IMG/VR virus record: IMGVR_UViG_3300034284_000150 | Span: 1-40,776 of that record | Reading direction: 5' to 3' (one strand) | Origin: a virus | Length of the DNA stretch: 40,776 nt | In this document: positions 128-12,558 of the stretch, piece by piece | Position numbering within the stretch: the first letter of the stretch is position 1 | How the letters are laid out: the number at the start of each line of letters is the position of its first letter | The notes under the pieces: generated by a model | What the model was told of the DNA's origin: nothing | The model's database searches: none | What the model saw: only the letters and a program-made list of their open reading frames with translations | Position numbers and translations under genes: made by a program

Positions 128-564
128 AGGTTGAAGGATTCGGCACCGCGTTAAAACTTAAAAACTTAATCGGTGCAGAAAAGCAGACCATCAGCAACAT
201 CTTAAAAGTATCCATGAGAGCGAAAAGAATTGATGGTGTAGATGGTGTCGATTCTCTGCTTGATGGGATAAAATCATGGCAAGGCTTTATTGACCGCCTA
301 GAAAATGCAGAAGCAGAAAAAGCGGAAGCATTGGAAGCGGAAGCAGAAGCCAAAGCAGAAGCAACCACAGAAGCAAAGAAAGAAGCAGACCTAAAGGGGA
401 TTACCCCTGACGCTTTCGCTGAATTGACCCTAAAGTATTTCGCCACGCTTAACATGGCAGAAGCCAAAGTTATCAACGCGAAATTGGTTAAAACTATCGT
501 ATCGGGTTGGATTACGATAGATAAAAACAGCACAGCGAAAATCACAGAAAAGGCTAAAGCCTAA
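1..564 (+). CDS. Unknown 223-residue A/E/K-rich protein, C-terminal part
   Basis: I do not recognise this protein. The window opens in frame inside it; its first residues are encoded at 40542-40776, giving 223 residues in all when the circle is closed. An internal ATG at 37 is not the real start. It has a lysine-rich N-terminus, a mixed central part, and at about residues 145-170 a nearly pure alanine/glutamate/lysine stretch that should form a charged helix or coiled coil. It is the only gene between two repeat-rich noncoding stretches (39835-40541 and 616-830), is preceded by a copy of the dispersed palindrome, and is followed by a strong terminator. It is therefore a self-contained transcription unit. 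A role in binding the flanking repeats, for example in replication initiation, is possible from position alone. Confidence 0.8.
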   Translation, partial: SHWGFISTTNQKMVDGIASVRIVKASINEASKDGKDSIIKASQVEGFGTALKLKNLIGAEKQTISNILKVSMRAKRIDGVDGVDSLLDGIKSWQGFIDRLENAEAEKAEALEAEAEAKAEATTEAKKEADLKGITPDAFAELTLKYFATLNMAEAKVINAKLVKTIVSGWITIDKNSTAKITEKAKA

Positions 565-583
565 ACCTAGCCCGACAGAATAG

Positions 584-615
584 CCTCACCCCTTAGGGGG
601 TGGGGTTATTTTTTT
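584..615 (+). terminator. Strong intrinsic terminator
   Basis: A nine-pair GC-rich stem (584-592 with 597-605, one G-U pair) closes a TTAG loop and is followed by a run of T broken by a single A (606-615). It lies 20 bases after the stop codon at 564 and ends that single-gene unit before the noncoding stretch that follows. Confidence 0.88.
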
Positions 616-620
616 AGCTA

Positions 621-647
621 GTCCGATATGTCCGAATTGCCCGATTT
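621..647. repeat. Three tandem 9-base repeats (GTCCGATNT type)
   Basis: Three consecutive 9-base units read GTCCGATAT, GTCCGAATT and GCCCGATTT. A longer, more degenerate array of the same unit lies at 40337-40396 on the other side of the 223-residue gene. The spacing is close to one helical turn, as for iterons, but no binding protein is identified. Confidence 0.6.
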
Positions 648-649
648 TC

Positions 650-759
650 AACACAAACCAACACAAACTATCATAGCCAACACAAACTATTAGAAGCGTG
701 TAAAAAGAAAAGTCAGCGACACGAAAAAAATCAGGAACACAAAAAAATCCAACACAAAC
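650..759. repeat. Dispersed AACACAAAC repeats
   Basis: Four exact copies of AACACAAAC start at 650, 660, 679 and 751, and a near copy starts at 736. Three are extended as CCAACACAAACTA. Another copy lies at 40278-40286 in the opposite noncoding stretch. Between 616 and 815 I see no gene; the stretch is purine-rich on this strand and holds these repeats and the 9-base repeats. The function is unknown. Confidence 0.5.
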
Positions 760-815
760 TAGAGGGGCGAGAGTCAGAAGGGGCACACATGGGAAAGTGA
801 GGGTACAAAAGTGAG

Positions 816-832
816 CGTCTGAAAATCAGACG
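816..832. promoter_or_regulatory. Dispersed palindrome, copy 1 (upstream of promoter)
   Basis: GTCTGA-AAA-TCAGAC, extended by a further C/G pair, ends 15 bases upstream of the -35 box at 848. Its centre is 94 bases from the centre of the next copy (910-926), about nine helical turns, so the two copies bracket the promoter on the same helix face. This arrangement would suit repression by looping, which is inference. Confidence 0.75.
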
Positions 833-847
833 ATATTAAAATTGAAT

Positions 848-876
848 TTGACATCAGGGCTGAATTATGCTATACT
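848..876 (+). promoter_or_regulatory. Sigma70-type promoter, early rightward unit 1
   Basis: TTGACA (848-853), a 17-base spacer and TATACT (871-876), with a TG extension one base before the -10 box. The start of transcription should fall near 883, and the first gene begins at 942. Palindromes lie on both sides (816-832 and 910-926). Confidence 0.85.
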
Positions 877-909
877 GAAGCCACTTAAGAAAAACCTATC
901 TTAAGTAAG

Positions 910-926
910 TGTCTGAAAATCAGACA
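910..926. promoter_or_regulatory. Dispersed palindrome, copy 2 (leader of first small gene)
   Basis: TGTCTGA-AAA-TCAGACA, a perfect palindrome around a three-base centre. The core starts 35 bases after the end of the -10 box, exactly as at the promoter at 3942-3970. It ends 15 bases before the ATG at 942, just upstream of the AAGGA ribosome-binding site. It could be a DNA operator or a hairpin in the leader RNA. Confidence 0.8.
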
Positions 927-941
927 GTAAGGATAATAAAC

Positions 942-1088
942 ATGCTAGACCAAAACGCAGAAAATGTGCTAATCCAATTAGCGCAAAAGATAGATACTAG
1001 TTATGAAGTAGAGCGCAATAAGTTAGAGCAAGCAAACCGCAATAAGCCTAACCCTGAATATCTTAGAGTAATGGGGTTAGCCTTATGA
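942..1088 (+). CDS. Small unknown early protein, 48 residues
   Basis: The ATG follows a clear AAGGA ribosome-binding site and the palindrome at 910-926. The 48-residue product is polar, probably helical, and rich in Asn, Glu and Gln. It has no recognisable domain and no membrane segment. Its stop overlaps the next start in an ATGA junction, so the two genes are translationally coupled. It is the first gene of the unit driven by the promoter at 848. Confidence 0.7.
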   Translation: MLDQNAENVLIQLAQKIDTSYEVERNKLEQANRNKPNPEYLRVMGLAL

Positions 1089-1228
1089 GTCCTGACGATA
1101 TTGCCTTCGACTTTATGACCGAGCAAGAGATAGCCGAGATTATTGCAACTGAAGATATTTTTCAGGTAGACTTGTCCGATATTGATAATTTACTTGAGGA
1201 TGTTGCTACGGACTCGGACTACGAATAG
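1085..1228 (+). CDS. Small acidic early protein, 47 residues
   Basis: This gene is coupled to the previous one by ATGA. The product is strikingly acidic (about 14 Asp/Glu and almost no basic residues in 47) and is predicted to be helical. Very acidic small early phage proteins are often inhibitors that mimic DNA or bind host enzymes, but nothing here shows a target. The family is not recognised. Confidence 0.65.
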   Translation: MSPDDIAFDFMTEQEIAEIIATEDIFQVDLSDIDNLLEDVATDSDYE

Positions 1229-1238
1229 CAACTGGACA

Positions 1239-1285
1239 GCCCACGCTGGTGCGTGTTATTATGGGTTCAATTCCCATAGTGGGCA
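1239..1285 (+). ncRNA. tRNA-like minihelix (acceptor plus T arm)
   Basis: A canonical T arm is present: stem ATGGG/CCCAT (1261-1265 with 1273-1277) with the 7-base loop TTCAATT, which fits the TTCRANY rule. It is followed directly by a 7-base acceptor 3' strand (1278-1284) and a discriminator A. The matching 5' acceptor strand GCCCACG (1239-1245) pairs at six of seven positions. Only 15 bases separate acceptor and T arm, so D and anticodon arms are missing. It may be a decayed tRNA, a functional minihelix, or chance. A weak promoter (TGGACA at 1233, TATTAT at 1257) overlaps it, and an alternative CACG/CGTG hairpin is possible. Confidence 0.35.
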
Positions 1286-1287
1286 CT

Positions 1288-1308
1288 AGTGTCTGAAATT
1301 CAGACACT
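1288..1308. promoter_or_regulatory. Dispersed palindrome, copy 3
   Basis: This is the longest copy, with nine-base arms around an AAT centre; the core GTCTGA-AAT-TCAGAC is at 1291-1305. It ends 18 bases before the ATG at 1327 and upstream of the GAAGGG ribosome-binding site. Confidence 0.8.
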
Positions 1309-1326
1309 TATGAACGAAGGGTAATC

Positions 1327-1455
1327 ATGTACATAGAAGTAACTGATGCAATAGCAATTACTATCGCATTAACTACCAGCATAACGCTGATAATCACTAC
1401 TGCTGTTAGAAACGCTAAACTAACTCGCTTAATCCGTGAGTCAAATGGAAAATAA
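1327..1455 (+). CDS. Small single-pass membrane protein, 42 residues
   Basis: The ATG follows GAAGGG at a good distance. After a short N-terminus, residues 8-27 (isoleucine, threonine and alanine-rich) form one membrane segment, followed by a basic tail, so the C-terminus is probably cytoplasmic. Its end overlaps the next gene by 11 bases in another frame. The family is not recognised; small early membrane proteins in phages often act in superinfection exclusion or host takeover, which here is inference only. Confidence 0.65.
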   Translation: MYIEVTDAIAITIALTTSITLIITTAVRNAKLTRLIRESNGK

Positions 1456-1591
1456 ATACAAGATAACTGCCGAGGTAGACCAAAAATGGTTTGAGATACT
1501 TTGGGAAATCACCAAAGGTAAAGTCGGTTTTACTTGGTTAGAAGTAGACGGCAACGCACCAATACCTAATAAGTGGGAGTTGAGTGAGTAA
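1445..1591 (+). CDS. Small unknown early protein, 48 residues
   Basis: It starts inside the end of the membrane-protein gene and ends in a TAATG junction with the next gene, so both neighbours are translationally linked to it. The 48 residues contain four tryptophans, with acidic and basic residues mixed. No domain is recognised. Confidence 0.6.
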   Translation: MENKYKITAEVDQKWFEILWEITKGKVGFTWLEVDGNAPIPNKWELSE

Positions 1592-1812
1592 TGTCTGCTA
1601 ACAATGTAGATTATGCCAACGATATTATCCTTGCACTTACTAGAGATGAACTAGAAACTGTCAGGGAGTCTTTACGGCAATTCTCTATTATCAATACCCG
1701 AAACGGCTTTGAGGCTCGCGCCAAAAATGCTGATAACTTGCGTGATAAAATCGTGAATATAATTCTCGATAGTGTACAGCGTAAGATTGACAAAGAGCAG
1801 GAGTTAGTGTAA
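1591..1812 (+). CDS. Small helical early protein, 73 residues
   Basis: This unknown protein is charged, mostly predicted helix, and has no cysteine cluster or membrane segment. The start at 1591 shares its A with the preceding TAA. The -35 and -10 boxes of the next promoter (1787-1815) lie over its last codons and stop, so the unit that follows is transcribed separately as well as by read-through. Confidence 0.7.
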   Translation: MSANNVDYANDIILALTRDELETVRESLRQFSIINTRNGFEARAKNADNLRDKIVNIILDSVQRKIDKEQELV

Positions 1813-1815
1813 ACT
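1787..1815 (+). promoter_or_regulatory. Sigma70-type promoter for the amidoligase unit
   Basis: A perfect TTGACA (1787-1792), a 17-base spacer and TAAACT (1810-1815, four of six matches). It lies at the end of the preceding gene. The palindrome at 1836-1850 follows, then the amidoligase gene at 1864. Confidence 0.6.
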
Positions 1816-1835
1816 AATACCACTCAACAACAACT

Positions 1836-1850
1836 GTCTGAAATTCAGAC
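1836..1850. promoter_or_regulatory. Dispersed palindrome, copy 4 (amidoligase leader)
   Basis: GTCTGA-AAT-TCAGAC ends 13 bases before the amidoligase ATG, with GGAAAGGA as ribosome-binding site in between. Its start is 21 bases after the -10 box, closer than the 35 bases seen at the other two strong promoters. Confidence 0.8.
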
Positions 1851-1863
1851 GGAAAGGATAGAT

Positions 1864-3099
1864 ATGGAAACTGTTGACGAGGTTGAGGTAGAATACAAAT
1901 GTATCGCCTGCGACCTCGAGTTAAATGAGGACGATAAGTTAACCACAGATAATGGTGAAACTATCTGCACCGATTGCGTTAGAATATGCGAGAAGTGTGA
2001 ACTTGTCGGCCAAGAAAATGATGACTGGAACCATATAGACAACATGGAAATATGGTGTGCTAATTGTACTAGTGCTTATGCTCATTGGTGTGATGACTGT
2101 GATAACTACTTCACAGGCTACACTTATGGTGCAGAGGATACAAGTATGACCTTCTGTGAGCGTTGCTTTGAACGCTCATGCTCTTACTGTGAGCCTTGCG
2201 ACGCTTACTACTATGATGGTTGTACTTATGCTCATGATGAAGATGATGAGGAAGATACTAGGCTGATACATGATTATTCGTATCGACCTGACCCTATCTT
2301 TCATAGTGGTGAGGATGAGCAGACACGACTATACTTTGGTATCGAGATTGAAGCCGAGGTTCGTGGTGGTAATTATCCTGAACGCACTGATGCAGCCGAG
2401 TATGCTCAGATACTTGAGGATAAGCGGTTGGCTTATCTAAAGTCTGACGGCTCACTTGAGTGTGGCTTTGAAATAGTCACGCACCCAATGTCTCACTATT
2501 ATTTCATGAACGAAAATGATTTAATGTGGGAAGTAATCTCTAAACTAAAACAAGATTACAATATGATTTCATGGGGTACTAAAACCTGTGGGCTTCATAT
2601 ACATATATCTCGTAATGGGTTTAGTGGTGGTTCACATCAGCATAGATTTTTACAGTTAGTATATGGCAACAAGGACTTTTATGAGGTACTTGCTGGCAGG
2701 TCATCTAGTCATTGGGCTAAGTTCAATGATATTATTGATGAGAATACTGGCAAGAAATCTTTCAAGCAAAAGTTCGAGAGGCATGGTTCCGATAGGTACT
2801 CTGCCGTTAATACCAATAATAGGAATACACTAGAGATGCGTATCTTTAGAGGTAGCCTAAATCCGAGGTTCATCAAGTCCGCTATTGACTTAGCACACGC
2901 CAGCGTTGAGTTCACTAGAGTGATGAGCGTCCAAGAAGTTAGAAATGGTGGGTTGTCCTGTCTGAATTTCAGACAGTACATTGAGAGCAAGGCTGACTTG
3001 TATCCATCATTAAATGCACGAATACAATTAAATTCAGAAACTATATCAAGGATAGAAAGGAAAGAGCATGTGTCTGCTAGTAGTAAGTTCCCCGAATAG
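1864..3099 (+). CDS. Zinc-ribbon amidoligase-family enzyme
   Basis: Predicted COOH-NH2 ligase of the glutamine-synthetase-like amidoligase family, which joins an amine or ammonia to a carboxyl group using ATP. Residues 13-120 carry many paired cysteines (13/16, 35/38, 42/45, 65/68, 76/79, 98/101, 106/109/112), which should form several zinc ribbons or knuckles. The catalytic fold follows: YFGIEIEAE (157-165), DGSLECGFEIVTHP (195-208), CGLHIHIS (242-249) and the basic/acidic stretch 311-333 with N-T-L-E-M-R. These resemble the family's metal- and nucleotide-binding strands. The substrate is unknown. It has its own promoter and palindrome and overlaps by 32 bases a class II glutamine amidotransferase, the expected ammonia source. 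Adjacent amidoligase and amidotransferase genes are a described association for this family. The zinc-rich N-terminus is unusual and may bind substrate, protein or nucleic acid. Confidence 0.75.
   Translation: METVDEVEVEYKCIACDLELNEDDKLTTDNGETICTDCVRICEKCELVGQENDDWNHIDNMEIWCANCTSAYAHWCDDCDNYFTGYTYGAEDTSMTFCERCFERSCSYCEPCDAYYYDGCTYAHDEDDEEDTRLIHDYSYRPDPIFHSGEDEQTRLYFGIEIEAEVRGGNYPERTDAAEYAQILEDKRLAYLKSDGSLECGFEIVTHPMSHYYFMNENDLMWEVISKLKQDYNMISWGTKTCGLHIHISRNGFSGGSHQHRFLQLVYGNKDFYEVLAGRSSSHWAKFNDIIDENTGKKSFKQKFERHGSDRYSAVNTNNRNTLEMRIFRGSLNPRFIKSAIDLAHASVEFTRVMSVQEVRNGGLSCLNFRQYIESKADLYPSLNARIQLNSETISRIERKEHVSASSKFPE
2958..2976. promoter_or_regulatory. Dispersed palindrome, copy 5 (inside amidoligase gene)
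   Basis: CTGTCTGA-ATT-TCAGACAG, with eight-base arms, lies inside the amidoligase coding sequence 92 bases before the amidotransferase start. It encodes a Leu-Asn-Phe-Arg stretch. A site kept inside a gene suggests control, or an RNA hairpin, ahead of the downstream gene. I found no good promoter beside it. Confidence 0.7.
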
Positions 3100-3895
3100 T
3101 ACGCCACGCAAGAAGGACTTAGATTGTGCTTCTTGTAATAATCCACATGGCTTTGGCTATGCGGTAATTGCCGGTGATAAGATTATTACTGGTAAGGGTA
3201 TGTCTGCTAAGAAAGTAATCAAGGAGTTCCTAGCGGTGCGTAAACAATACCCAAATAGTTATGCTATGTATCATGCTAGGTTTGCTACGCATGGTGTAAA
3301 GAATGAGGATAACTGCCATCCATTCAAGATAGGTGGTAGTGATTTATCATACTTAGCGCACAATGGTATATTGCCTGTGCATATCGAGCCTAATGATAAG
3401 CGTAGTGATACTCGTATATTTGCTGACGATATCCTGCCTTCTATGGGTGGTATTACTGCACTAGATAATCCTAACTTGTATGGCATGATAGAAGGGTGGG
3501 CTAGTGGCAGTAAGATTGCAGTATTCACACTAGACCCTGACGCACAATACGATTGCTACATCATCAATGAGGACTTAGGTCATTGGGATAATGCTGGCAA
3601 CTGGTGGTCTAATGACTCATACAAGCCTAGCAAGTGGGGTAATTTCTTTCAGAAATATGATGACTCCTTAGACTTAAGTGAGGGCTGGGCATCAGATGAT
3701 GGCATGTGCTACACCTGTGGTGATGTTATGTCAAACGAGAATAACCCGTATTACTGCGACTCATGCGGTGGATGCTATGATTGCAGTATGGTAAAAGATG
3801 ATGGGTGCATGTGCTGGACACCTGAGCGTGACGATTTCAGCCGACACAAACTAGAGATGGGAAAATACAATGGACAATATGACTTTGGCTTCTAG
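3068..3895 (+). CDS. Class II glutamine amidotransferase with zinc ribbon
   Basis: An N-terminal-nucleophile amidotransferase that hydrolyses glutamine and supplies ammonia to a partner synthase. The start is fixed by chemistry: Met-Cys, so that removing Met exposes Cys as nucleophile; GGAAAG lies just upstream. Family motifs follow in order: HGFGYAV (27-33), HARFATHG (69-76), NCHPF (82-86), AHNGIL (97-102) and SDTR (113-116). A C-terminal cysteine cluster (residues 214-249, with CYTC, CDSC, CYDC and CMC) makes a zinc ribbon of the same flavour as the one in the amidoligase, so both enzymes may dock through zinc domains or onto the same target. No glutamine-dependent synthase domain is fused, so the overlapping amidoligase is the likely partner. 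Possible targets are peptidoglycan carboxylates, a protein or a small metabolite. Confidence 0.85.
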   Translation: MCLLVVSSPNSTPRKKDLDCASCNNPHGFGYAVIAGDKIITGKGMSAKKVIKEFLAVRKQYPNSYAMYHARFATHGVKNEDNCHPFKIGGSDLSYLAHNGILPVHIEPNDKRSDTRIFADDILPSMGGITALDNPNLYGMIEGWASGSKIAVFTLDPDAQYDCYIINEDLGHWDNAGNWWSNDSYKPSKWGNFFQKYDDSLDLSEGWASDDGMCYTCGDVMSNENNPYYCDSCGGCYDCSMVKDDGCMCWTPERDDFSRHKLEMGKYNGQYDFGF

Positions 3896-4010
3896 AGAGG
3901 AAGTCAGAAAAGTAATTGTAGAGTTAATTTCTATTGCCAATTTGACAACAGAAAGTGATGATGCTATAATTGCTCGTGCAAGGTTAATACTACAACAACT
4001 AGGTGTCTGA
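3870..4010 (+). CDS. Small unknown early protein, 46 residues
   Basis: This frame starts inside the end of the amidotransferase gene and stops within the palindrome at 4003-4021. The product is amphipathic and probably helical. A perfect-consensus promoter lies inside it, which constrains its codons; whether it is made as a protein is uncertain. An alternative start is the ATG at 3879. Confidence 0.45.
   Translation: MDNMTLASREEVRKVIVELISIANLTTESDDAIIARARLILQQLGV
3942..3970 (+). promoter_or_regulatory. Perfect-consensus sigma70-type promoter
   Basis: TTGACA (3942-3947), exactly 17 bases, then TATAAT (3965-3970), with a TG extension one base before the -10 box. It should start transcription near 3977 and drives the block of small genes, WhiB and transglycosylase from 4036 onward. 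The palindrome core begins 35 bases after the -10 box, the same distance as at the promoter at 848-876. Confidence 0.88.
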
Positions 4011-4021
4011 AAATCAGACAC
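4003..4021. promoter_or_regulatory. Dispersed palindrome, copy 6
   Basis: GTGTCTGA-AAA-TCAGACAC has eight-base arms. It sits in the leader RNA 14 bases before the ATG at 4036, ahead of AAAAGGA. A GTG inside this palindrome could extend the next reading frame upstream, but the ATG at 4036 with its ribosome-binding site is the better start. Confidence 0.82.
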
Positions 4022-4035
4022 AGAAAAGGATAGAT

Positions 4036-4263
4036 ATGAAACTAAAAGTACACCACCCAAATGGTGATGTGATAGCAGAGGTATATGATTATGCTGCTGG
4101 CGCATTACTTATGAGCCTGTATGGAGATGGCTCTTATATCACTTACAAAGGTGCGTCAGTATGGGAGGAAGGCACAGATGGTGAAGGTGCTGAAAGTTAT
4201 GATACTGTAGGTATGGTAATAGATTCTAGGTTAATTAGCATGGGGGTACAAGTTGACGGGTGA
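4036..4263 (+). CDS. Small unknown early protein, 75 residues
   Basis: The start at 4036 is chosen because AAAAGGA precedes it at normal spacing and the upstream GTG falls within the palindrome. The product looks like a small beta-rich protein (HHPNGDVIAEVYDY near the start) with no cysteines, membrane segment or known motif. It is the first gene behind the perfect promoter at 3942, and its end overlaps the next gene by 11 bases. Confidence 0.75.
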   Translation: MKLKVHHPNGDVIAEVYDYAAGALLMSLYGDGSYITYKGASVWEEGTDGEGAESYDTVGMVIDSRLISMGVQVDG

Positions 4264-4495
4264 AGTTACTATTACTGAACTAATGGATAAGTATATGATA
4301 TCATCTGATGAAAAGATGAGTACTGGATTTGCTAAGTCTATCATACTAAATGATGGAACTAGTAAATATTCGGGTAGACTTCATTGGGATTCCTTTGATG
4401 GCTACTCTATGACATGGGATACTCAGCAACCACCTGAGGCAGACCGCCCTGAATTTGAATATGTACTTGATTGCATAACAGACTTGGAGAGATAA
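4253..4495 (+). CDS. Small unknown acidic early protein, 80 residues
   Basis: The start is TTG, preceded by GGGGG six bases upstream; an ATG at 4283 is an alternative. The product is acidic with several aromatic residues near the C-terminus and no known domain. It overlaps both neighbours by a few bases, as expected for a coupled early operon. Confidence 0.65.
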   Translation: MTGEVTITELMDKYMISSDEKMSTGFAKSIILNDGTSKYSGRLHWDSFDGYSMTWDTQQPPEADRPEFEYVLDCITDLER

Positions 4496-4644
4496 TGGAT
4501 ACATTAAAAGAAGGCGTAATATGGGAAGCACAGATTAGACGCAGTGATTTGGAGGGTAAGAGTGATGAGGAAATTAACCAAATGATTGTGGAATTAAACC
4601 TTGCGCTTCAAAGTATTTGCTGGGCGCATGGGCTACATAACTGA
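4495..4644 (+). CDS. Small unknown early protein, 49 residues
   Basis: It begins in a TAATG junction and ends in a TGATG junction, so it is fully embedded in the coupled operon. The 49 residues are mostly helical with alternating charges. No family is recognised. Confidence 0.6.
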   Translation: MDTLKEGVIWEAQIRRSDLEGKSDEEINQMIVELNLALQSICWAHGLHN

Positions 4645-5081
4645 TGAAAGAAAATAATCAATTACTAAACAATTATCGTAGTGTGTTCACATATCTAGAG
4701 GGTGATTTAGAATTAGATGTGAGTAATGGACTATGCACTACACATGATGACCCCGACCTGTGGTTTGCTGGTGAGGTAGAGCAGGTCGAGGGTGAGGTAT
4801 GGAGAAACACGAAAGACCAAAGGCGTAGGTATCAAGCAGAGGTGGACAAGGCTGTGTCTGCAATAGCGGTATGCAACAACTGTCCTGTAAAGAATGACTG
4901 CCTGCAACTAGGTTTACGTGGCTTTCCTCAGGTAATGTTTGGTATATATGGTGGTACAATGCCAGGAGAAAGAATGGCTATGCTGGGCAAAGTTAATAAG
5001 AATCCTTACAATAGGATGAAGGTTAGTTTTGCCAATAGAGTAAGAAAAACCATGAGGGAAAGGGGCTATATTGGAGGCTAA
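4644..5081 (+). CDS. WhiB-family iron-sulfur transcription regulator
   Basis: WhiB-like proteins bind a [4Fe-4S] cluster and, in characterised members, region 4 of the host principal sigma factor to redirect transcription. The four cluster cysteines are Cys31, then Cys77-x2-Cys80-x5-Cys86 in the typical CxxCPV context. The family's turn GIYGG (100-104) is followed by ER and a basic C-terminal DNA-binding region. The gap between Cys31 and Cys77 is longer than in most host members. The family is restricted to Actinobacteria and their phages, which identifies the host phylum. It lies in the early operon behind the perfect promoter, so a role in switching or repressing host transcription is likely, as shown for mycobacteriophage WhiB proteins. 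Confidence 0.9.
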   Translation: MKENNQLLNNYRSVFTYLEGDLELDVSNGLCTTHDDPDLWFAGEVEQVEGEVWRNTKDQRRRYQAEVDKAVSAIAVCNNCPVKNDCLQLGLRGFPQVMFGIYGGTMPGERMAMLGKVNKNPYNRMKVSFANRVRKTMRERGYIGG

Positions 5082-5253
5082 ACGCTATAGGGTAGAGATA
5101 AATACAAACGCTACTTTGGTTTATTATGTAGTAGAGTATGATATAGATAATGCTATTGAGTTAGCAATGAATGCACCCTACAAAGAATGGCATGTGTCTG
5201 AATTTCAGACGCCACCAAATGAAGAGATAATAGCGGAGGAAACGAGGCTGTAG
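5071..5253 (+). CDS. Small unknown early protein, 60 residues
   Basis: It probably starts at TTG 5071, preceded by AAAGGGG. A small alpha/beta protein seems likely: the first half has alternating hydrophobic residues of a beta strand pair, the second half is acidic. The gene contains palindrome copy 7 (5196-5210), which encodes Glu-Phe-Gln. Confidence 0.65.
   Translation: MEAKRYRVEINTNATLVYYVVEYDIDNAIELAMNAPYKEWHVSEFQTPPNEEIIAEETRL
5196..5210. promoter_or_regulatory. Dispersed palindrome, copy 7 (inside small gene)
   Basis: GTCTGA-ATT-TCAGAC within a coding sequence, 45 bases before the transglycosylase start. It has the same centre as copy 5, the other intragenic copy. No convincing promoter was found beside it. 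Confidence 0.7.
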
Positions 5254-5255
5254 TA

Positions 5256-5645
5256 ATGAAAAGGTTATTATTTTTATTGTTCATATTTTTATTTTCTCTA
5301 TTTGGAATTACAGAAGTAGAGACGTCAGTTAAACCTCACAAGTGGGGTATTGCTGATAGCAAAGCCTATGCTAGGGATTCACTACTTGCATGGCACCATA
5401 ATCAATGGTTATGCTTGGATAAACTATGGACAAAAGAGTCTAACTGGAGACATCAAGCGTATAATAAGCAACCAGTATATCAGAAGGGTGAGAAAATGCA
5501 CGCTGGCGGTATACCACAGATTCTTGGACTTTCGCCCGACACAAACCCAATCGAGCAAATTGACCGGGGATTGGATTATATATCATATCGCTATGGAACC
5601 CCATGTCAAGCATGGAAGTTTTGGCAGAAGAATAATTGGTACTAA
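5256..5645 (+). CDS. Secreted lytic transglycosylase-like protein
   Basis: Predicted peptidoglycan-cleaving enzyme of the small transglycosylase group related to aggregation-promoting-factor proteins. Residues 1-20 are a hydrophobic signal sequence or anchor after Lys-Arg. The catalytic motif is LWTKESNW with Glu61, followed by AGGIPQILG (83-91) and the family's C-terminal pattern of a helical segment, YRYGTPCQAW (111-120) and a terminal WY. At 129 residues it is a bare catalytic domain. It sits in the early operon, far from the late lysis genes at 13-14 kb, so it may act at the wall during early infection rather than in final lysis. Confidence 0.82.
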   Translation: MKRLLFLLFIFLFSLFGITEVETSVKPHKWGIADSKAYARDSLLAWHHNQWLCLDKLWTKESNWRHQAYNKQPVYQKGEKMHAGGIPQILGLSPDTNPIEQIDRGLDYISYRYGTPCQAWKFWQKNNWY

Positions 5646-5821
5646 TGGCTACATATGAATATAAGTGTGATACAGACTTTCGCACAGTATTAGTTGTCAG
5701 GGGAATGACTGAGGAAGAAGTAATTCCTATCTGCCAACTATGTGATGAAGAAATGGTTCGTATTTACAATGCAGCACCAGTCAAATTTAAGGGGACTGGA
5801 TTCTATTCGACAGGAGGTTAG
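5645..5821 (+). CDS. FmdB-like zinc-ribbon protein
   Basis: Starts in a TAATG junction after the transglycosylase gene. It begins with the FmdB-type pattern YEYKC, has a second knuckle CQLC, and ends with the family's FKGTGFYSTGG. The first knuckle keeps only one cysteine, so metal binding may be altered. FmdB-like proteins are small putative regulators of unclear action. The product has 58 residues. Confidence 0.75.
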   Translation: MATYEYKCDTDFRTVLVVRGMTEEEVIPICQLCDEEMVRIYNAAPVKFKGTGFYSTGG

Positions 5822-5822
5822 T

Positions 5823-5942
5823 ATGGCTTATGGTAGATGTTGGGTATGTGGTTGCGAGATGAGTGGCGACAGCCAAACAACAGAAAGCAAGGTGAAATGT
5901 GATAGATGCGGATGGAACTCAGGCAAAGATGGGAGTTGGTAA
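5823..5942 (+). CDS. Tiny zinc-ribbon protein, 39 residues
   Basis: The start at 5823 is supported by AGGAGG five bases upstream. Two cysteine pairs (CWVCGC and CDRC) form a single zinc ribbon that occupies most of the protein. It is coupled to the next gene by TAATG. The target is unknown; such stand-alone ribbons usually mediate protein or nucleic-acid contacts. Confidence 0.7.
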   Translation: MAYGRCWVCGCEMSGDSQTTESKVKCDRCGWNSGKDGSW

Positions 5943-6376
5943 TGAAAGATTCTAACTGGGATTTAGACTTACGTGATGGAGAGGCAGGAGAAAGTAAACT
6001 TGCTGACCTATTACGGATAGATACAATAGAAGTTAAGACAGATAGACGCTGGAAAGATACAGGCAACTTATTTATTGAGGAGTCTTGTTTCTATCAAGGT
6101 AGTGGACAATGGGAGCCATCAGGACTATCAGTAAGCAAGGCTACACATTGGGCATTTATCATCGAGGGTAATGTCATCATAGTTACTAGGGAGCATTTAA
6201 TGAACGTGGTTATGGATTATGGCAGACCTATTGAGAATAAACAACCACCTAATCAATCTAAGGGTCATCTTATTACCCCTGAACAATTAATAAATTATAC
6301 TAGAATGAGAAATGATAAGTTCGATAAGGCTGGAGAAGCATATAAGAATCGTGAGGAACAGGAGTATCCGGTCTGA
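5942..6376 (+). CDS. PD-(D/E)XK nuclease-like protein
   Basis: Start at 5942 in a TAATG junction; an upstream in-frame ATG at 5906 is rejected because it lies within the preceding gene. Candidate active-site residues are Glu17, Asp27 and Glu30-Val-Lys32, followed by TGNLFIE and a PSG turn, as in small phage endonucleases of this superfamily. The product is 144 residues. It is the last rightward gene and faces the leftward operon with only eight bases between stop codons; no terminator is visible there. Confidence 0.7.
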   Translation: MKDSNWDLDLRDGEAGESKLADLLRIDTIEVKTDRRWKDTGNLFIEESCFYQGSGQWEPSGLSVSKATHWAFIIEGNVIIVTREHLMNVVMDYGRPIENKQPPNQSKGHLITPEQLINYTRMRNDKFDKAGEAYKNREEQEYPV

Positions 6377-6384
6377 TAACTAGA

Positions 6385-7098
6385 TTACTCGTCTTCTCCA
6401 GGCCCATCTTCTTCCCCTTGTTCCTCATCTTGCTCTACCAATTCGGTCTTTGGAGTTTCATCGTCTTGAGTATTATTATCAAAATCCTTATCTAACCAAG
6501 GTCGGAATCCACCGATTCTAGTAATAAGTTTTTTGATTGCACGATTATGACGCATGCGTACAGCATCTTCGCTGCCGATATTCATCTCGGTGGCTATGTC
6601 GCCATAATCCATAGATTCGGCGTGTTTGTAAAACAATACGGTCCTATCCTCTGTATTGAGTTTACGATACGCCTTATCTATTTCTAGCATCATGACCATA
6701 AGATTACCGCCTTCTGCTGGAGCAGGTGGCTTGCTAGGTCCAGAAAGATTTAACTTGTGAGATATTCCGAACTCACCACGCAATACAGATGGCAACAAAG
6801 CCTCTACTATATCAGGCTCATAAAAGAATATATCTGATGGTTCATAGCCTAATGATTTGGCTTTCCATCTCTGACAATAATCCAATGCATCATTACGAAG
6901 TGAACGATAGATTAGATTCTTGGCATCTTTCTCGCCAATAGATTCCCACTCATTTAACTTATTTGGATGCTCTACAAACCATTCATAAAGTGATTGCTTG
7001 ATGTCCTCAAGTTCAACCATATCATATTTTTTATGATACTCAGCAGATACAGCGATGACAATGTAATCCCACTTTTTAATACGCTCCCACTCTACCAT
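6385..7098 (-). CDS. Sigma-factor-like transcription protein
   Basis: The centre and C-terminal half contain a sigma70 region-4-like helix-turn-helix: LNTEDRTVLFYKH, then YGDIATEMNI and the recognition helix ending in RHNRAIKKL. The N-terminal part (a helical stretch with EDIKQSLYEWFVEHP and a later RSLRNDALDYCQRWKAK) resembles a degenerate region 2. The last 35 residues are a very acidic tail. It may direct the phage's late promoters or bind host polymerase as a regulator. It is the last gene of the leftward replication operon, consistent with delayed expression before late genes. Its start overlaps the phosphoesterase stop. Confidence 0.7.
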   Translation of the reverse strand: MVEWERIKKWDYIVIAVSAEYHKKYDMVELEDIKQSLYEWFVEHPNKLNEWESIGEKDAKNLIYRSLRNDALDYCQRWKAKSLGYEPSDIFFYEPDIVEALLPSVLRGEFGISHKLNLSGPSKPPAPAEGGNLMVMMLEIDKAYRKLNTEDRTVLFYKHAESMDYGDIATEMNIGSEDAVRMRHNRAIKKLITRIGGFRPWLDKDFDNNTQDDETPKTELVEQDEEQGEEDGPGEDE

Positions 7099-7832
7099 TT
7101 CCAGGTTTTCCCTTCCACAGTAAATGACCTATTAACGATAGGCACTAATTGAGGTACGACAGTCTTGCCATCAACATGTAAGATACCAAAGCCTTGTTGC
7201 CATGTAAATAATCCAGCCTTAATATACTTAGCATTATTATAATTCATTAAGTTGCCCAGTTCCATGCCCCATACAGTCTTGGCTTTACCGCCACGATATG
7301 TTTGAGTATGATGTGTTAATCCCATACGATGAGTGTGTCCGCACACGACAGACATGCCTGAGCGTTTTGCTAGTCCAAGTGCAGTAGCACCAGCAGTAGG
7401 TTGCACGTTACCCTCGTCACCATGCATTAACAACCAACCAGGGGCTAGTTCATAAGGGTCTTTGTGATACTTAATCTCTAACTCGTCAAGCCCTAAGAAG
7501 TTTTCTAATTGCAGTTCAGGTAAGCCAAGTAATCCTGGCGCTCTCATTGCAACTGTATTAAATAATCTATCTGTGTGGTTACTGCGAACCATATGCTCAA
7601 CAGTTAAGTCATAAAGAACCTGTCTAGTAGTGTCTCTGTCACGTCCAATAGAACGCTCAAACTCTAACTCAGTTCCCTTACTCCACTTACTGATAGTCTG
7701 CATATCCATTTCATCTCCGCAAGATACTACGGTATCAGGTTGGTAATCTTTGATGAACTTAGCAATTGCTTTGACGGCTTCTGCATCGTGGTATGGGACT
7801 TGAAGGTCTGAAATACAAACGATAGTTTTCAT
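7092..7832 (-). CDS. Calcineurin-like metallophosphoesterase
   Basis: Motifs of the two-metal phosphoesterase fold appear in order: SDLQ (8-11), CGDE (38-41), SNHTD (84-88, in place of GNHD), MHGDE (136-140) and CGHTHR (164-169). Phage members are thought to act on nucleic acids or cyclic nucleotides, but the substrate cannot be read from sequence. It is coupled by overlaps to the methyltransferase upstream and the sigma-like gene downstream. Confidence 0.85.
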   Translation of the reverse strand: MKTIVCISDLQVPYHDAEAVKAIAKFIKDYQPDTVVSCGDEMDMQTISKWSKGTELEFERSIGRDRDTTRQVLYDLTVEHMVRSNHTDRLFNTVAMRAPGLLGLPELQLENFLGLDELEIKYHKDPYELAPGWLLMHGDEGNVQPTAGATALGLAKRSGMSVVCGHTHRMGLTHHTQTYRGGKAKTVWGMELGNLMNYNNAKYIKAGLFTWQQGFGILHVDGKTVVPQLVPIVNRSFTVEGKTWKW

Positions 7833-8335
7833 TGCGTTACCTCTTCCATTAGTTTGATTGCTTCTGACATACTATTACTGCCAGGAAACAAGTCATCTAA
7901 AGTGTCTCCCTTTTTATATTGTAATAAATTTAATATCCAAGTATTAAAATCTAATGGCTTGGCTCCATAGAAATTCTTTTTCATGGCTATTCTTCCTGAA
8001 TGCCAGTCTCTTATCATAGGTTTAACTGGTGTAATTTTACGCCCACCTCGCCAAATTACAGGCTCCCAAGCGTATTGTATGGCTACATTTACCCTTATTT
8101 GATGGAATGTTTTAGTCCAAATTGCAACTCTAACATCATCCGGACATGCAGATAAATACAATTTAAGTGATGGTGCAGATAAAGATACTGCCCACCCATC
8201 TGGGTACTCATCAACCAGTCTTTCGATTAGTTGTATGTGTGACTTAGGGTCGTCCCATATCTCCGCCTCTGTATGAAGTGAAGAATACTTTTTACCCATA
8301 CCCAAATATGGTGGGTCAGCGTATGCAAATTTCAT
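7829..8335 (-). CDS. DNA adenine methyltransferase-like protein
   Basis: The N-terminus carries the catalytic motif YADPPYLG (DPPY at 7-10). Near residue 150 is LFPGSNSM, matching the SAM-binding motif of permuted amino-methyltransferases (FxGSG-like). At 168 residues it is short and has no obvious separate target-recognition domain. No cognate restriction enzyme is beside it, but an HNH endonuclease gene lies directly upstream with overlapping ends. It probably methylates adenine in phage DNA to evade host restriction. Confidence 0.75.
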   Translation of the reverse strand: MKFAYADPPYLGMGKKYSSLHTEAEIWDDPKSHIQLIERLVDEYPDGWAVSLSAPSLKLYLSACPDDVRVAIWTKTFHQIRVNVAIQYAWEPVIWRGGRKITPVKPMIRDWHSGRIAMKKNFYGAKPLDFNTWILNLLQYKKGDTLDDLFPGSNSMSEAIKLMEEVTQ

Positions 8336-8613
8336 TTCTTTTTGGCACGTCTCTTATTCTCTAAACCTACATTTTTCTTTTTAGATAGAACCCTTAGGTT
8401 AGATAACTTATCATTACCTTTACGACCCTTGTTATCTATGTGGTCTACTTCTTGATTACGTTTTAACTTCTTGCCTGTGGCTTTTTTGTAGTCAAGTCTT
8501 GCTTTATTTGTAGACGTAGTTTCGGTAGTTCCATCTTTCTTTTTGCGTTTGATAACGTAAATTGGACGACCACCATTTTGCTTGCTTCCCTTGTAAGGTC
8601 CAAATATTTTCAC
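8332..8613 (-). CDS. HNH endonuclease
   Basis: The second half contains VDHIDNKGRKGNDKLSNLRVLS, the HNH motif in the form seen in phage HNH_3-type homing-like enzymes, followed by a very basic tail. The N-terminal half is also lysine-rich. It is free-standing, 93 residues, and overlaps the methyltransferase gene by four bases. It could be a homing nuclease or part of a modification-linked nicking pair. Confidence 0.82.
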   Translation of the reverse strand: MKIFGPYKGSKQNGGRPIYVIKRKKKDGTTETTSTNKARLDYKKATGKKLKRNQEVDHIDNKGRKGNDKLSNLRVLSKKKNVGLENKRRAKKK

Positions 8614-8691
8614 TTTATTCCTATCTCAATAGTGCTGCTATTAAAGCCAGCAGGCTTGTTAGTTGTAGTTGAAATGCAAATAATAATTCTA

Positions 8692-8985
8692 TCATCTATC
8701 CCATTGTCCTCTCAGTACAAGCAATCCAATGATTGCATAGTTTGCCATGTCCTTAAAAGAATCTTCGATAGATTCATGCTCAGGATTTTTACCGCTATCA
8801 ACTAGGTTATTGATACGTGCTAACTTGTCATGCATACGAACCCTTAATCCATTAATAGCACCACCTGGTGCATCAGAAATGTTTCTTGGTCCGTAATCTT
8901 TATGTTTAGACAACATTAAATCTAAGAGTTCTTGGAAGGTTTGACCAACCTCTAACTCAAAAGTAGTGTCTTTATTCTCTGTCAT
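8692..8985 (-). CDS. Nmad1/DUF1599-like nucleotide-metabolism protein
   Basis: The start at 8985 follows AGGGGA six bases upstream; a longer frame to 9000 is less likely. The sequence KHKDYGPRNIS, then RMHDKLARINNL and a conserved acidic DSFKDMANYAIIG resembles the domain called nucleotide modification associated domain 1, common in phages and related in pattern to MazG-like pyrophosphohydrolases. It may act on nucleotides or partner with modification enzymes; the exact reaction is unproven. About 80 bases without a gene separate it from the HNH gene. Confidence 0.65.
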   Translation of the reverse strand: MTENKDTTFELEVGQTFQELLDLMLSKHKDYGPRNISDAPGGAINGLRVRMHDKLARINNLVDSGKNPEHESIEDSFKDMANYAIIGLLVLRGQWDR

Positions 8986-9346
8986 TTTCTTCCCCTTCAT
9001 CCTCGATTTCCGCTAAAAAGTGCTGTAATTCACTGTCAAAATGACGCATTTCTTCCTTAATTACTACATCTTCTATGTATTTTTTCATCTTTTTAGGGCT
9101 AGATTCAGCGGCATATAAAGTTGCATAAACTGATTGAGTTATGAACTTTATATCTTTAGGATTATCTGCTGCAAAATATAAAGAACGAAGTAAAGAACCA
9201 ACCATTAGTTGATATCCTCCAGGAAGAATAAGTTTAGGGTCAAATGGTAGTCCATCTTCATCATCAATTAAGTGGTCAGTTGCATCAAATATATTATCAA
9301 AATGTTGACCACATATTTTGCATGGTGGAATATCTTTAGGATTCAT
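8972..9346 (-). CDS. Unknown protein with N-terminal zinc-finger-like motif
   Basis: Residues 9-25 (CKICGQHF...H) resemble a C2H2 finger. The rest is helical and ends in an acidic tail. It overlaps the primase C-terminal gene upstream and the Nmad1-like gene downstream, so it belongs to the replication operon. The function is not recognised. Confidence 0.65.
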   Translation of the reverse strand: MNPKDIPPCKICGQHFDNIFDATDHLIDDEDGLPFDPKLILPGGYQLMVGSLLRSLYFAADNPKDIKFITQSVYATLYAAESSPKKMKKYIEDVVIKEEMRHFDSELQHFLAEIEDEGEENDRE

Positions 9347-9962
9347 TTAATCCCATTCTTTCTCGAATATACTGGGAGCCGTATTTGACATAGACTGAAT
9401 TGACGTCTTCACCGTCCGGCATTTGCACGACTGTGACTGGCAACTCACGGGCGAGACTAGCAGCAAATTCTTTTCCTGGTTGGTCTCCATCTGCGAATAC
9501 AAATATTCTCTCAAAGTCTGCAAGTAATCTGGTGTAATGTTTTTTCCAAGAGTTCGCACCAGGAACGCCGACGCAAGGTATACCAATACAAGCAGACAAA
9601 GTAATAGTATCCAACTCACCTTCACAGATTCCAATCCAGTCCCCTGCTCTATCTATATCTAACACGTTGTACATTTTAGTTTCAACACCTGTCATTCCCA
9701 TGTACTTAGGTTCAACAGCAGGATTAAGAGAGCGAAAACGTAAGTCGACAACACCAGTCTTGGTAATATACGGTATTGATAATCGTCCTTGGAATTGTTC
9801 ATGTCCAGTTTCAGGCTCCTCTACTACGCCGAATCGAGCCAGACGTGCTGCTTCCCTTGTTATTCCCCTGCTTGCCAGGTAATCTTCTGCCTGATAAATG
9901 TTTGCTGCGTACTTGGTTGCCGCTAGACTGAGTAATTCCTTCTGCGAATTGCTTTGCTTCAC
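9336..9962 (-). CDS. DNA primase, TOPRIM catalytic subunit
   Basis: The catalytic half of a DnaG-type primase: ICEGELDTIT (Glu114 and Glu116) and VFADGDQPG (Asp158, Asp160) are the TOPRIM acidic motifs. The zinc-binding half is encoded by the preceding overlapping gene at 9811-10185 in another frame. The start is GTG at 9962 with AAGGAAGGAG upstream, so it can be translated separately. The 152-base overlap means the end of the upstream product is probably an out-of-frame tail unless a frameshift fuses them. It makes primers for phage DNA synthesis with the helicase encoded upstream. Confidence 0.82.
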   Translation of the reverse strand: MKQSNSQKELLSLAATKYAANIYQAEDYLASRGITREAARLARFGVVEEPETGHEQFQGRLSIPYITKTGVVDLRFRSLNPAVEPKYMGMTGVETKMYNVLDIDRAGDWIGICEGELDTITLSACIGIPCVGVPGANSWKKHYTRLLADFERIFVFADGDQPGKEFAASLARELPVTVVQMPDGEDVNSVYVKYGSQYIRERMGLNES

Positions 9963-10185
9963 GTATATCCACTCCTTCCTTTCTTGCTATAATCTGTAAA
10001 CTATTGCCTTGCATACCACACGCAAAACAATTAAATATATTTTCTCTAGTATTAAAACTTGATGACTTATGCGTGTCGTCATGGAATGGACATCTAATAT
10101 TTACTTGTCCACTAGTCCTGCTCATGTCAGCACCGTAGTGCCGTAGAACATCCACTATGCTTGGCATATCATCTGTCAAATACAT
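9811..10185 (-). CDS. DNA primase, zinc-binding subunit
   Basis: The N-terminal zinc ribbon of DnaG-like primases is clear: CPFHDD (Cys32, His35) and FNCFACG (Cys53, Cys56). After about residue 75 the sequence overlaps the catalytic-subunit gene in a different frame and becomes low-complexity (Ser, Gly, Arg-rich), unlike a folded domain. Separate zinc and TOPRIM genes occur in other actinophages. Either two subunits act in trans or a frameshift joins them; I cannot decide from sequence. Confidence 0.8.
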   Translation of the reverse strand: MYLTDDMPSIVDVLRHYGADMSRTSGQVNIRCPFHDDTHKSSSFNTRENIFNCFACGMQGNSLQIIARKEGVDIREAKQFAEGITQSSGNQVRSKHLSGRRLPGKQGNNKGSSTSGSIRRSRGA

Positions 10186-10537
10186 CGCCTAACCTTAATA
10201 CTAGATAAGAGTCCGCTATTCCTTTTCCTCGCGCTTTGATAACAACCGCAGGTAAGATGGATGTCTCTTCAAGGCCTCTTGCCTCTGAATAATTTCTTGC
10301 TTCAACTTGAGCCTCTTTGGTCCAACCAGATAGGTCAATGCGACCTGATTGACCCGGGGCTTTGGCTTCGATGATTCCGATGTGGCCGAGGAAGTCTTTG
10401 CGGACGACAATATCTCCTTCATCTTTAGAACCTCTTCGTGCAAGTCTTTCACTATCAAATCCAATTCGTCTAAAATAATCTCGTAAGTCGGTTTCAAAGT
10501 TTGCTCCTCTAGCCTTATGGCTTTTTCTAGTTGTCAT
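10169..10537 (-). CDS. Holliday-junction-resolvase-like PD-(D/E)XK protein
   Basis: Matches the archaeal Hjc-type pattern: GANFETDLRDYF (Glu15), SKDEGDIVV (Asp42) and GIIEAKA (Glu57, Lys59), followed by a charged helix. At 122 residues it is a single nuclease domain. It would resolve branched replication intermediates before packaging. Its ends overlap the helicase gene upstream and the primase gene downstream. Confidence 0.8.
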   Translation of the reverse strand: MTTRKSHKARGANFETDLRDYFRRIGFDSERLARRGSKDEGDIVVRKDFLGHIGIIEAKAPGQSGRIDLSGWTKEAQVEARNYSEARGLEETSILPAVVIKARGKGIADSYLVLRLGDVFDR

Positions 10538-11316
10538 GAATTCTCTGGTATGTCTTCTACATACATGTACTCAGGGTTAAACGCTAACCAAGTCATAAGC
10601 GTTCCGTTAGCATCCGCTCTACCGTAACGATTTTTGACTGCTGCCACGCCAAGCGATGTGCCCACCGTACCGAGTGTACATATGAGCGCAGGAAGTTGAG
10701 AGACCTTACCTTGGATTGCGCTTCTTGGCTGACAAGGATTCCCAGGAACTGCTTCAGAAGTGTGATGTAATACAACAATCGCAGCGTTAGTGGCTCTGGC
10801 AAGATACTTCAACTCCTTCATAATCGCTCTCATTGAGGCGAACTCTTCACCACCATCTGTGGCTACATCCATTAAGTTATCTAAAACTATAAGTGTTGGT
10901 GCACAACCCCACAATTCTTCAAAGGCTTGTACTTCCTCATCAATATCTTGCAGGGTTGGCGATGATTCAAACGACCAAACTATATGGCTTCCTTTTTGGA
11001 GGATTGCTTTAGTCCATCCAACATCAGTATTAAGTTTCTGTTCAACATCTGTTTGATTTTTACCAGATATCATTGACGCTAGGCGCATAGCCATAGTATG
11101 TGCATTGGTATCAGCGGAGATGTAAAGAGTTGGAACATTTGTTTTTAATGCAAGTGCTAGAGCAAGTGTTGATTTACCTGCACCTGGAGCACCTGCAAAC
11201 ATAGAAACTTCTGAACGCCTAATTATAATCTTGGACGCTTCAAATGATTTAAAACAACTAGGTAGAGGTTCCCCACCGATAGAGGCTCTACCTACAGACC
11301 TGACAAGTGTACGCAT
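10534..11316 (-). CDS. Replicative helicase-like RecA-fold ATPase
   Basis: DnaB/RecA-type P-loop ATPase. Walker A is GAPGAGKST (42-50), Walker B is LIVLDNL near residue 145, and a VVLHHTSE stretch gives the sensor histidine. At 260 residues it is a minimal motor domain without the DnaB N-terminal domain, like the AAA_25/RepA-type helicases of phages and plasmids. It lies just upstream of resolvase and primase genes, consistent with the replisome motor. Confidence 0.8.
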   Translation of the reverse strand: MRTLVRSVGRASIGGEPLPSCFKSFEASKIIIRRSEVSMFAGAPGAGKSTLALALALKTNVPTLYISADTNAHTMAMRLASMISGKNQTDVEQKLNTDVGWTKAILQKGSHIVWSFESSPTLQDIDEEVQAFEELWGCAPTLIVLDNLMDVATDGGEEFASMRAIMKELKYLARATNAAIVVLHHTSEAVPGNPCQPRSAIQGKVSQLPALICTLGTVGTSLGVAAVKNRYGRADANGTLMTWLAFNPEYMYVEDIPENS

Positions 11317-11358
11317 CTATCCCCCTACCTATTTGTTAAAATGGAAATTCTTGGTCTG

Positions 11359-11742
11359 TTAATTTACTGGCTTGCATTGGTCCGCGCCCTGAGGCATTGG
11401 ACATACCCACATTGCGTAAGGATTCCCCGTCTTGCTTGAGATTCCCGACTTGTACTTCCTCGCTCCATGCTGGCACGTTGGTGCTGATGTAGCGGATGGA
11501 GCCGATGCCTGGGGTGGTGTTGAGGATTGTGGAGGCTTTGTGCTTGTAGTGGTAGTCGGCGTCGATAAAGGGGCGGCATTACTCGCTCCCACCACCAACT
11601 TTCCTACGGCAGCAATTTGAGTTGAGTAATCCCCAATGCCCTCTAATAACACACTTAATTCATCAGCAGTGTTTGCTCTGATATTAATCATATCTCCATT
11701 AGGAGTTTTATATGATACTTGTAACTTCCATTCTTCTGCCAT
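11359..11742 (-). CDS. Zinc-ribbon protein with Pro/Ser/Thr linker
   Basis: Three parts are visible: an N-terminal region of about 55 residues with beta strands, a flexible Pro/Ser/Thr/Ala linker (about 55-85), and a C-terminal knuckle (CQHGARKY ... WVCPMP ... DQC) that should bind zinc. Proteins of this shape recur next to helicase and nuclease genes in actinophages, where a DNA-binding role is plausible. I cannot name the family. Confidence 0.65.
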   Translation of the reverse strand: MAEEWKLQVSYKTPNGDMINIRANTADELSVLLEGIGDYSTQIAAVGKLVVGASNAAPLSTPTTTTSTKPPQSSTPPQASAPSATSAPTCQHGARKYKSGISSKTGNPYAMWVCPMPQGADQCKPVN

Positions 11743-12351
11743 TTATCCTTCTTTCTTTGTAGAGAACTGACAATGAGCGGTTAATCCGCACATGTACTGA
11801 CAAGAGTTTGTGTTGGGCAAAAATATTCCTGCCTTCCTAGCCTTGTCAAAACCTTTAATCAGGAACTCCATCTTATCATATGTATATCCTGAAAGGTCAA
11901 CCATCTCTACAGTATTGCTACCTCGAGACATGTAGTAATTTCCCCAGTTCACTTCTATACCAAAAGTTTCTTCCAAACCAAGTTTATAAAAACCTAGTTG
12001 CAAAGTACTGGTGGGCGTGTTCTTTGATGTTTTGAGGTCAACAATTACTAGTTGCCCATTGACTTCAAAAACTCTGTCTATAACCATCTTGACTGGAACA
12101 TCAGCAACTACTGGTATTAGTTCCAATTCTATTGCTGGACGACCATCAGGTGCTGTCCATATTTTCCAATTGGTATTCTGCTTACGCCAAGCAATGTATT
12201 GCTCAACCCACATTGGTCCTGATGTTTGCCAAAAACTTATATCTTCTTTGTTTGGATTAATCTTAGTGGCTTTACCACCTACACGAGCATTGGTTAAGTC
12301 GATACCCTCAGATTCTTTTGCCCATGCTTTGTCCCATAAAGATTGGCTCAT
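11743..12351 (-). CDS. Cas4/RecB-like nuclease, catalytic part (split gene)
   Basis: C-terminal part of a PD-(D/E)XK exonuclease. Active-site candidates are Glu75/Glu77, Asp92 (IDRV) and Asp105-Leu-Lys107 (VDLKT), followed by the QLGFY motif at 118. Cys184-x3-Cys188-x5-Cys194 near the end matches the three C-terminal cysteines of the iron-sulfur cluster in Cas4/AddB-type nucleases. The fourth cysteine and the first family motif are encoded by the upstream gene (12348-12539), overlapping in an ATGA junction. The two products together match one ordinary enzyme. A role in recombination or DNA end processing is likely. Confidence 0.82.
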   Translation of the reverse strand: MSQSLWDKAWAKESEGIDLTNARVGGKATKINPNKEDISFWQTSGPMWVEQYIAWRKQNTNWKIWTAPDGRPAIELELIPVVADVPVKMVIDRVFEVNGQLVIVDLKTSKNTPTSTLQLGFYKLGLEETFGIEVNWGNYYMSRGSNTVEMVDLSGYTYDKMEFLIKGFDKARKAGIFLPNTNSCQYMCGLTAHCQFSTKKEG

Positions 12352-12539: not shown

Positions 12540-12545
12540 AGGATA

Positions 12546-12551: not shown

Positions 12552-12558
12552 CCTTAGG

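Follow-up and report, generated by a model that had tools for sequence, protein, structure and literature searches.

The window analyzed here, which is the whole 40,776-nucleotide stretch of the IMG/VR record IMGVR_UViG_3300034284_000150, contains two overlapping plus-strand genes (1864-3099 and 3068-3895) whose products likely form one two-component glutamine-dependent enzyme amidating a carboxylate, the expression of which is probably governed by a palindromic operator of the phage. Moreover, it is quite likely that the pair belongs to a phage-specific operator regulon under a new family of regulators, that regulator and palindrome specificity have switched repeatedly in concert, and that an operator lying inside a gene dictates protein residues and leaves eroded "fossils" behind. 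The proposed enzyme model rests on protein families, predicted folds, conserved catalytic and cysteine residues, strict linkage within the phage group and purifying selection.

Genome and probable host

The window carries a 127-bp direct end repeat (1-127 is identical to 40650-40776), which makes it probable that the record represents a complete genome, circular or circularly permuted, of about 40.6 kb. Its GC content is 40%. A gene for a WhiB-like regulator is found at 4644-5081. The WhiB, sigma factor, transglycosylase and terminase genes resemble those of LanE43-AprE7 and LanE43-AprF5 (L177 and L178 in our numbering), the cultured 'Ca. Planktophila' phages E7 and F5 (PMC10202952), with identities of 75% for the terminase and about 67% for the sigma factor. 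Because of this resemblance, the host is probably a freshwater actinobacterium of the 'Ca. Planktophila' order. When phages E7 and F5 were searched for the enzyme pair, the candidate regulator and the repeated palindrome described below, none of them was found. These cultured phages, which share the backbone of the window without the pair and the palindrome system, could thus serve as a laboratory background.

The amidoligase and amidotransferase genes

The gene coordinates given in the preliminary description were exact, and the two ORFs overlap by 32 bp. As had been proposed there, the product of the first one (1864-3099, 411 aa) is assigned to the amidoligases: it matches the Pfam family Amidoligase_2 (PF12224) with an E-value of 3e-8 and 34.1 bits, for a curated cut-off of 22, as well as PHROGs 16683 and 22302. 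Its AlphaFold2 model (pLDDT 86) was compared with known structures by Foldseek. The leading PDB matches (roughly ranks 1-33) all belong to the glutamine synthetase (GS) superfamily and include GmaS, GS, YbdK, PafA and Dop, with a best E-value of 2e-6 and TM-scores of only about 0.3. A sequence search of solved structures returned no amidoligase relative, just weak LIM matches.

Among 48 homologues, residues E161, E163, E165, E203, H245, H247, N316, N319, E324 and R326 are invariant, and the signatures FGIEIEAE, HIHIS and NTNNRxTLEMRIF are highly conserved. By analogy, E161/E163/E165, H245/H247 and E324/R326 would be active-site residues. The gene is under purifying selection (dN/dS 0.18-0.22). 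The protein is thus a predicted ATP-dependent carboxylate-amine ligase of the Amidoligase_2 family, with a GS-like catalytic domain at residues about 155-395, preceded by predicted LIM-like zinc modules at residues about 13-136.

The second ORF (3068-3895, 275 aa) had been described as a class II glutamine amidotransferase (GATase), and this assignment was borne out by its match to PHROG 25883 (8.5e-41) and by its active-site residues. The protein starts with Met-Cys, and the putative nucleophile C2 is invariant in 40/40 homologues, as are the glutamine-site residues R71, the oxyanion pair N99-G100 and D114. The signatures MC, HARFATHG, HNGI and RSDTR are highly conserved in the same set. The Pfam GATase_4/6 match is weak (18 bits for cut-offs of 23-27); this is a matter of profile coverage and no defining property. 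In its predicted model (pLDDT 73, poor in the tail), the fold was matched by Foldseek to the glutaminase domains of GlmS, GFAT and PurF, with an E-value of about 6e-7, and likewise to EgtC; for the two enzyme models together, TM-scores are low (0.3-0.4). With a dN/dS of 0.06-0.16, this gene is also under purifying selection. Family, active-site residues and predicted fold all point to a class II (Ntn) GATase of the GlmS/PurF type. Since both ORFs are conserved, with dN/dS values between 0.06 and 0.22, chance is excluded for them.

Cysteine clusters and predicted zinc modules

The extra cysteine clusters noticed in both proteins are real, their residues being invariant or nearly so across 48 amidoligase and 40 GATase homologues, down to about 45% and 57% identity, respectively. 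In the amidoligase, fourteen such cysteines (C13, C16, C35, C38, C42, C45, C65, C68, C76, C98, C101, C109, C112 and C120) all lie within the first 120 residues, and C79 is sometimes replaced by His. Together with H136, they fit four predicted zinc sites. Their spacing, C-x2-C-x18-C-x2-C-x3-C-x2-C-x19-C-x2-C, is LIM-like; the similarity to LIM structures is weak (E-values of 0.4-0.8 by sequence and 0.04 by fold), and the Pfam LIM profile does not match the protein, so the modules are termed LIM-like and not LIM. In the GATase, eight invariant cysteines (C214, C217, C230, C233, C236, C239, C247 and C249) form a predicted C-terminal double zinc module (residues 214-249) and fit two predicted zinc sites. 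Both proteins would thus bind zinc. This architecture is not unique to the present phage, because gp105 and gp106 of Mycobacterium phage Marvin carry corresponding clusters.

Linkage of the two genes

In IMG/VR, the GATase gene adjoins the amidoligase gene in 75/75 untruncated amidoligase loci, five further loci being truncated and not counted. Conversely, the amidoligase gene adjoins the GATase gene in all of 80 GATase loci except L007, where the contig begins just 28 bp upstream of the GATase gene. The two sets share many contigs and represent one phage group, and are therefore not independent. Within this group, the pairing is consistent. With a GS-like fold for the 1864-3099 product, a class II GATase fold for its partner and this consistent pairing, neither of the two observations that could weigh against the preliminary description, namely another fold for the amidoligase or homologues consistently lacking the amidotransferase, was made.

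Outside the group, the two genes stand side by side in Marvin, in the Methylophilales phages MEP401/402, in the podovirus ctgrD200 and in the faecal phage contig MT839723, and lie close together in Rhizobium phage N3_13. The pair thus recurs in phages of very different hosts. No GATase was recognised beside the amidoligase relatives of Clostridioides phage AR1086-1 and Microcoleus phage My-WqHQDG, nor an amidoligase neighbour in the Bifidobacterium phages having a GATase homologue. Contig scans of the GTDB species genomes with both alignments, a pattern-based search that reaches close relatives only, gave no homologue.

A repeated palindrome over the early-type genes

The amidoligase gene is preceded by a sigma-70-type promoter (TTGACA-17-TAAACT, 1787-1815, plus strand, 10/12 matches) and, between this promoter and the start codon, by the palindrome GTCTGAAATTCAGAC at 1836-1850. 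The preliminary description had attributed to the pair its own promoter and palindrome. The promoter stands, whereas the palindrome is not private to the pair: GTCTGA-N3-TCAGAC occurs in eight copies of 15 bp in the window, seven exact and one imperfect, and 18 strand matches were found compared with 0.19 expected. The other exact copies are located upstream of the promoter 848-876 (817-831), after that promoter and before the gene with its ATG at 941 (911-925), before a small ORF at 1327 (1291-1305), inside the amidoligase ORF (2960-2974, the span being given also as 2957-2976), after a perfect promoter at 3942-3970 and before the gene with its ATG at 4036 (4005-4019), and before the transglycosylase-like gene at 5256 (5196-5210). 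The imperfect copy, GTCTGGAAATCAGAC, lies at 40501-40515, in the leader of the candidate regulator gene. Furthermore, a palindrome copy is found 21-35 bp after each of the four best plus-strand promoter-like sites in the region 560-5300 (3942, 848, 1233 and 1787). The copies sit over early-type genes, the term "early" being deduced from gene order.

A short tRNA-like element, with an acceptor and a T-arm-like sequence, was observed at 1239-1286, where it overlaps a promoter-like site. ARAGORN made no call on it, and an Rfam match was sub-threshold and on the minus strand.

Related phages carry, at the same places, palindromes of other sequence that are mutually exclusive. About a dozen of these were distinguished among the relatives, by classes set by inspection, the AT-rich one (TATWATA) being loose. 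The matrix obtained by counting each palindrome in each phage was block-diagonal, a single stray copy in L025 being the exception; the main classes mostly had counts of 4-10, and some AT-rich ones lower counts. Palindromes of this kind could be read as RNA hairpins. In three of four classes, variant copies were changed on one side, without compensated changes, and a DNA site is therefore favoured. The hairpin reading is thus disfavoured, though not fully, given that compensated changes are present in the GTATGA class.

The copy inside the amidoligase gene, 108 bp before the GATase start, codes for C-L-N-F-R-Q within the peptide SCLNFRQ. In the GTCTGA-class phages of the clade, this site is intact and the peptide reads SCL[N/K]FRQ. 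At these codons, most GTATTA-class phages have TGTATTAATTTAATACA instead, translated as DCINLIQ; L031 and L032 lack it. In the AT-rich class, SCLNFRQ is kept in L020, L022 and L024, and DCINLIQ in L028, L029, L035 and L038, although synonymous changes have eroded the palindromes. The site exists in a third version in L053 and in a half-changed one in L042. Read most simply, the operator sequence would have dictated residues of the amidoligase, and remnants of the operator would outlast a switch of specificity. Another history of this site, such as recombination of the whole segment, is the alternative to this reading.

A candidate regulator that varies with the palindrome

An ORF running through the ends of the record (40542-40776 and 1-564, plus strand) encodes a protein of about 215 aa (about 200-220 aa in relatives) that matches nothing in Pfam, PHROGs or the PDB. 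When the 28 ORF families located within about 6 kb, antisense ORFs being among them, were compared across the clade of the window, this one alone separated the palindrome classes perfectly (AUC 1.0), the next family reaching 0.75, the amidoligase 0.51 and the GATase 0.55; 0/500 label shuffles attained the value of the regulator. The sampling of related contigs inflates these AUC and shuffle statistics, but the contrast with the neighbouring genes is internal. The median normalised similarity of the regulator was 0.56 within and 0.00 between palindrome classes. In addition, the predicted palindrome was present in 7/7 contigs outside the defining set, two of them near-duplicates, which had been fetched with regulator sequences of three classes. 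The family is highly divergent, and single members were used as search queries. From this covariation, we infer that the product of ORF 40542..564 is a candidate DNA-binding regulator.

Proposed activity and possible substrates

In the proposed mechanism, the Ntn-type GATase would hydrolyse glutamine by means of its N-terminal Cys2, and the ammonia produced would pass to the GS-fold amidoligase. The latter, with ATP, would activate the carboxylate of the substrate as an acyl phosphate, which would then be converted to a primary amide. Most likely, the zinc modules would hold the partners together, dock them on a macromolecular substrate, or do both. This division of labour would resemble that of MurT/GatD, where a ligase with a zinc ribbon works with a separate GATase, with unrelated folds. 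Expression of the pair would probably be under the phage-specific palindromic operator common to the neighbouring early-type genes, to which the product of ORF 40542..564 would bind.

No report demonstrating the substrate of such a pair was found in the literature, and nothing among the features of the window points one out. Our leading guess, a tentative one, is a wall peptide or cell-wall precursor from the actinobacterial host. The carboxylate of a host or phage protein is a doubtful candidate, a small metabolite a somewhat unlikely one and a nucleic-acid base a very unlikely one. The downstream transglycosylase-like gene (5256-5645), whose product has a hydrophobic N-terminus, is a weak hint at the wall; it may be a lysis gene.

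The activity itself may also be read otherwise. The GS-fold structural neighbours of the amidoligase include the Pup ligase PafA and the depupylase Dop, so that, like PafA acting on Pup, the enzyme might use the amine of an amino acid or peptide in place of ammonia and link it to a protein or peptide; the "GATase" would then be an Ntn amidase or peptidase trimming or reversing this bond. Ntn folds can indeed be amidases, and EgtC is among the matches of the GATase model. However, no part of the glutamine-binding signature (R71, N99-G100, D114) is missing from the GATase, whose closest resemblance is to true glutaminases. Nor was any small, conserved protein recognised as a tag, though the ORFs 1591-1812 and 4253-4495, which are both small and conserved, might encode one. 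We regard peptide tagging as distinctly unlikely. The production of a small diffusible amide, for instance an amino-acid amide, which would alter the nitrogen metabolism of the host or answer a defence signal, seems unlikely as well. A role in secondary-metabolite synthesis was suggested for the Marvin pair, as cited in PMC10580990; on the other hand, no accompanying biosynthetic genes were recognised, and zinc modules so large and conserved suggest that the enzyme docks on a macromolecule.

A modified base or nucleotide as the site of amide formation by the pair is highly improbable. The window contains methyltransferase-like and glycosyltransferase-like genes, and a DUF1599 protein ("nucleotide modification associated domain 1"; 8692-9000, minus strand) was present in 8/8 clade genomes tested. 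However, DUF1599 was absent from 9/9 other phage records tested, among which Marvin, MEP401/402 and ctgrD200 all possess the pair; it was thus rejected as a functional partner. As this gene does not travel with the pair, a role in base modification is disfavoured. Glutamine-dependent amidation of a carboxylate remains our preferred reading. With conserved zinc modules, a simple two-gene form and recognisable active sites, the pair is a good candidate for reconstitution.

Comparison with known systems

The preliminary description had named no defined function for a pair of this zinc-ribbon architecture in a phage. The pairing is already published for Marvin, for OM43 phages (PMC10580990, where phiEco32 and Marvin are explicitly referred to) and for LUZ24-like phages (PMC3890496; PMC5498523). 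The present enzyme pair is thus a fresh instance of an already published type, and its zinc architecture is elaborate. Adjacent genes for an amidoligase and a class II GATase are also found in Marvin (gp105-gp106) and further cluster S phages. CxxC clusters are found at the N-terminus of gp105, and gp106 has the same C-x2-C...C-x2-C-x2-C-x2-C...C-x-C tail. However, identity with the pair of the window is only about 29% for the amidoligase and 39% for the GATase, gp105 has fewer cysteine pairs, and the genes lie near the right end of a 65-kb genome.

The "peptidoglycan modification cassette" of phiEco32/LUZ24/PaP3-like phages similarly combines an Amidoligase_2 protein and a class II GATase near DNA-metabolism genes, and a protective effect against superinfection, through alteration of the wall, has been proposed for it (PMC5498523, PMC3890496, PMC10580990), a hypothesis which, for phiEco32-type phages, is given here as cited in PMC10580990. 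Unlike the pair, this cassette additionally includes genes for ATP-grasp, COOH-NH2 ligase and AIG2 proteins. A search for AIG2/GGACT genes detected none in the present genome, four relatives, Marvin or MEP402, but did detect one in the positive control, Rhizobium phage N3_13; the pair therefore does not depend on this cassette gene. Searches with PF14395 and PF14243 (ATP-grasp/COOH-NH2 ligase) gave no match, with positive controls that were weak or absent.

By analogy, MurT/GatD would be the best functional counterpart of the pair: there, a separate ATP-dependent ligase with a zinc ribbon, whose role on MurT is unclear, is combined with a separate ammonia-delivering GATase (PMC6113224). In that system, the MurT subunit belongs to the Mur ligases, and the GATase GatD has a catalytic Cys94/His189 arrangement, whereas here the predicted folds are GS-like and Ntn-like; the GS-like amidoligase model does not have a Mur-ligase fold.

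Judging from a brief literature search, the palindrome and its candidate regulator look like a specificity-switching operator/regulator system and are the more novel part of the window, compared with the enzyme pair. Cluster A mycobacteriophage stoperators are likewise short repressor sites repeated over the genome, with a group-specific sequence (PMC6550527); those sites are asymmetric, whereas the present ones are symmetric palindromes. The SAS/ESAS repeats of cluster K are also start-associated sites near non-structural genes, with an inverted-repeat consensus that differs between subclusters (PMC3203893). Unlike both systems, the one described here has a candidate regulator of no known family and one copy embedded in a coding sequence. 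The palindrome system may matter more than the enzyme pair, as it is a naturally occurring series in which regulator/operator pairs have switched specificity. Because this series includes in-gene operators and eroded remnants, its comparison can address how a regulator and its scattered sites change jointly.
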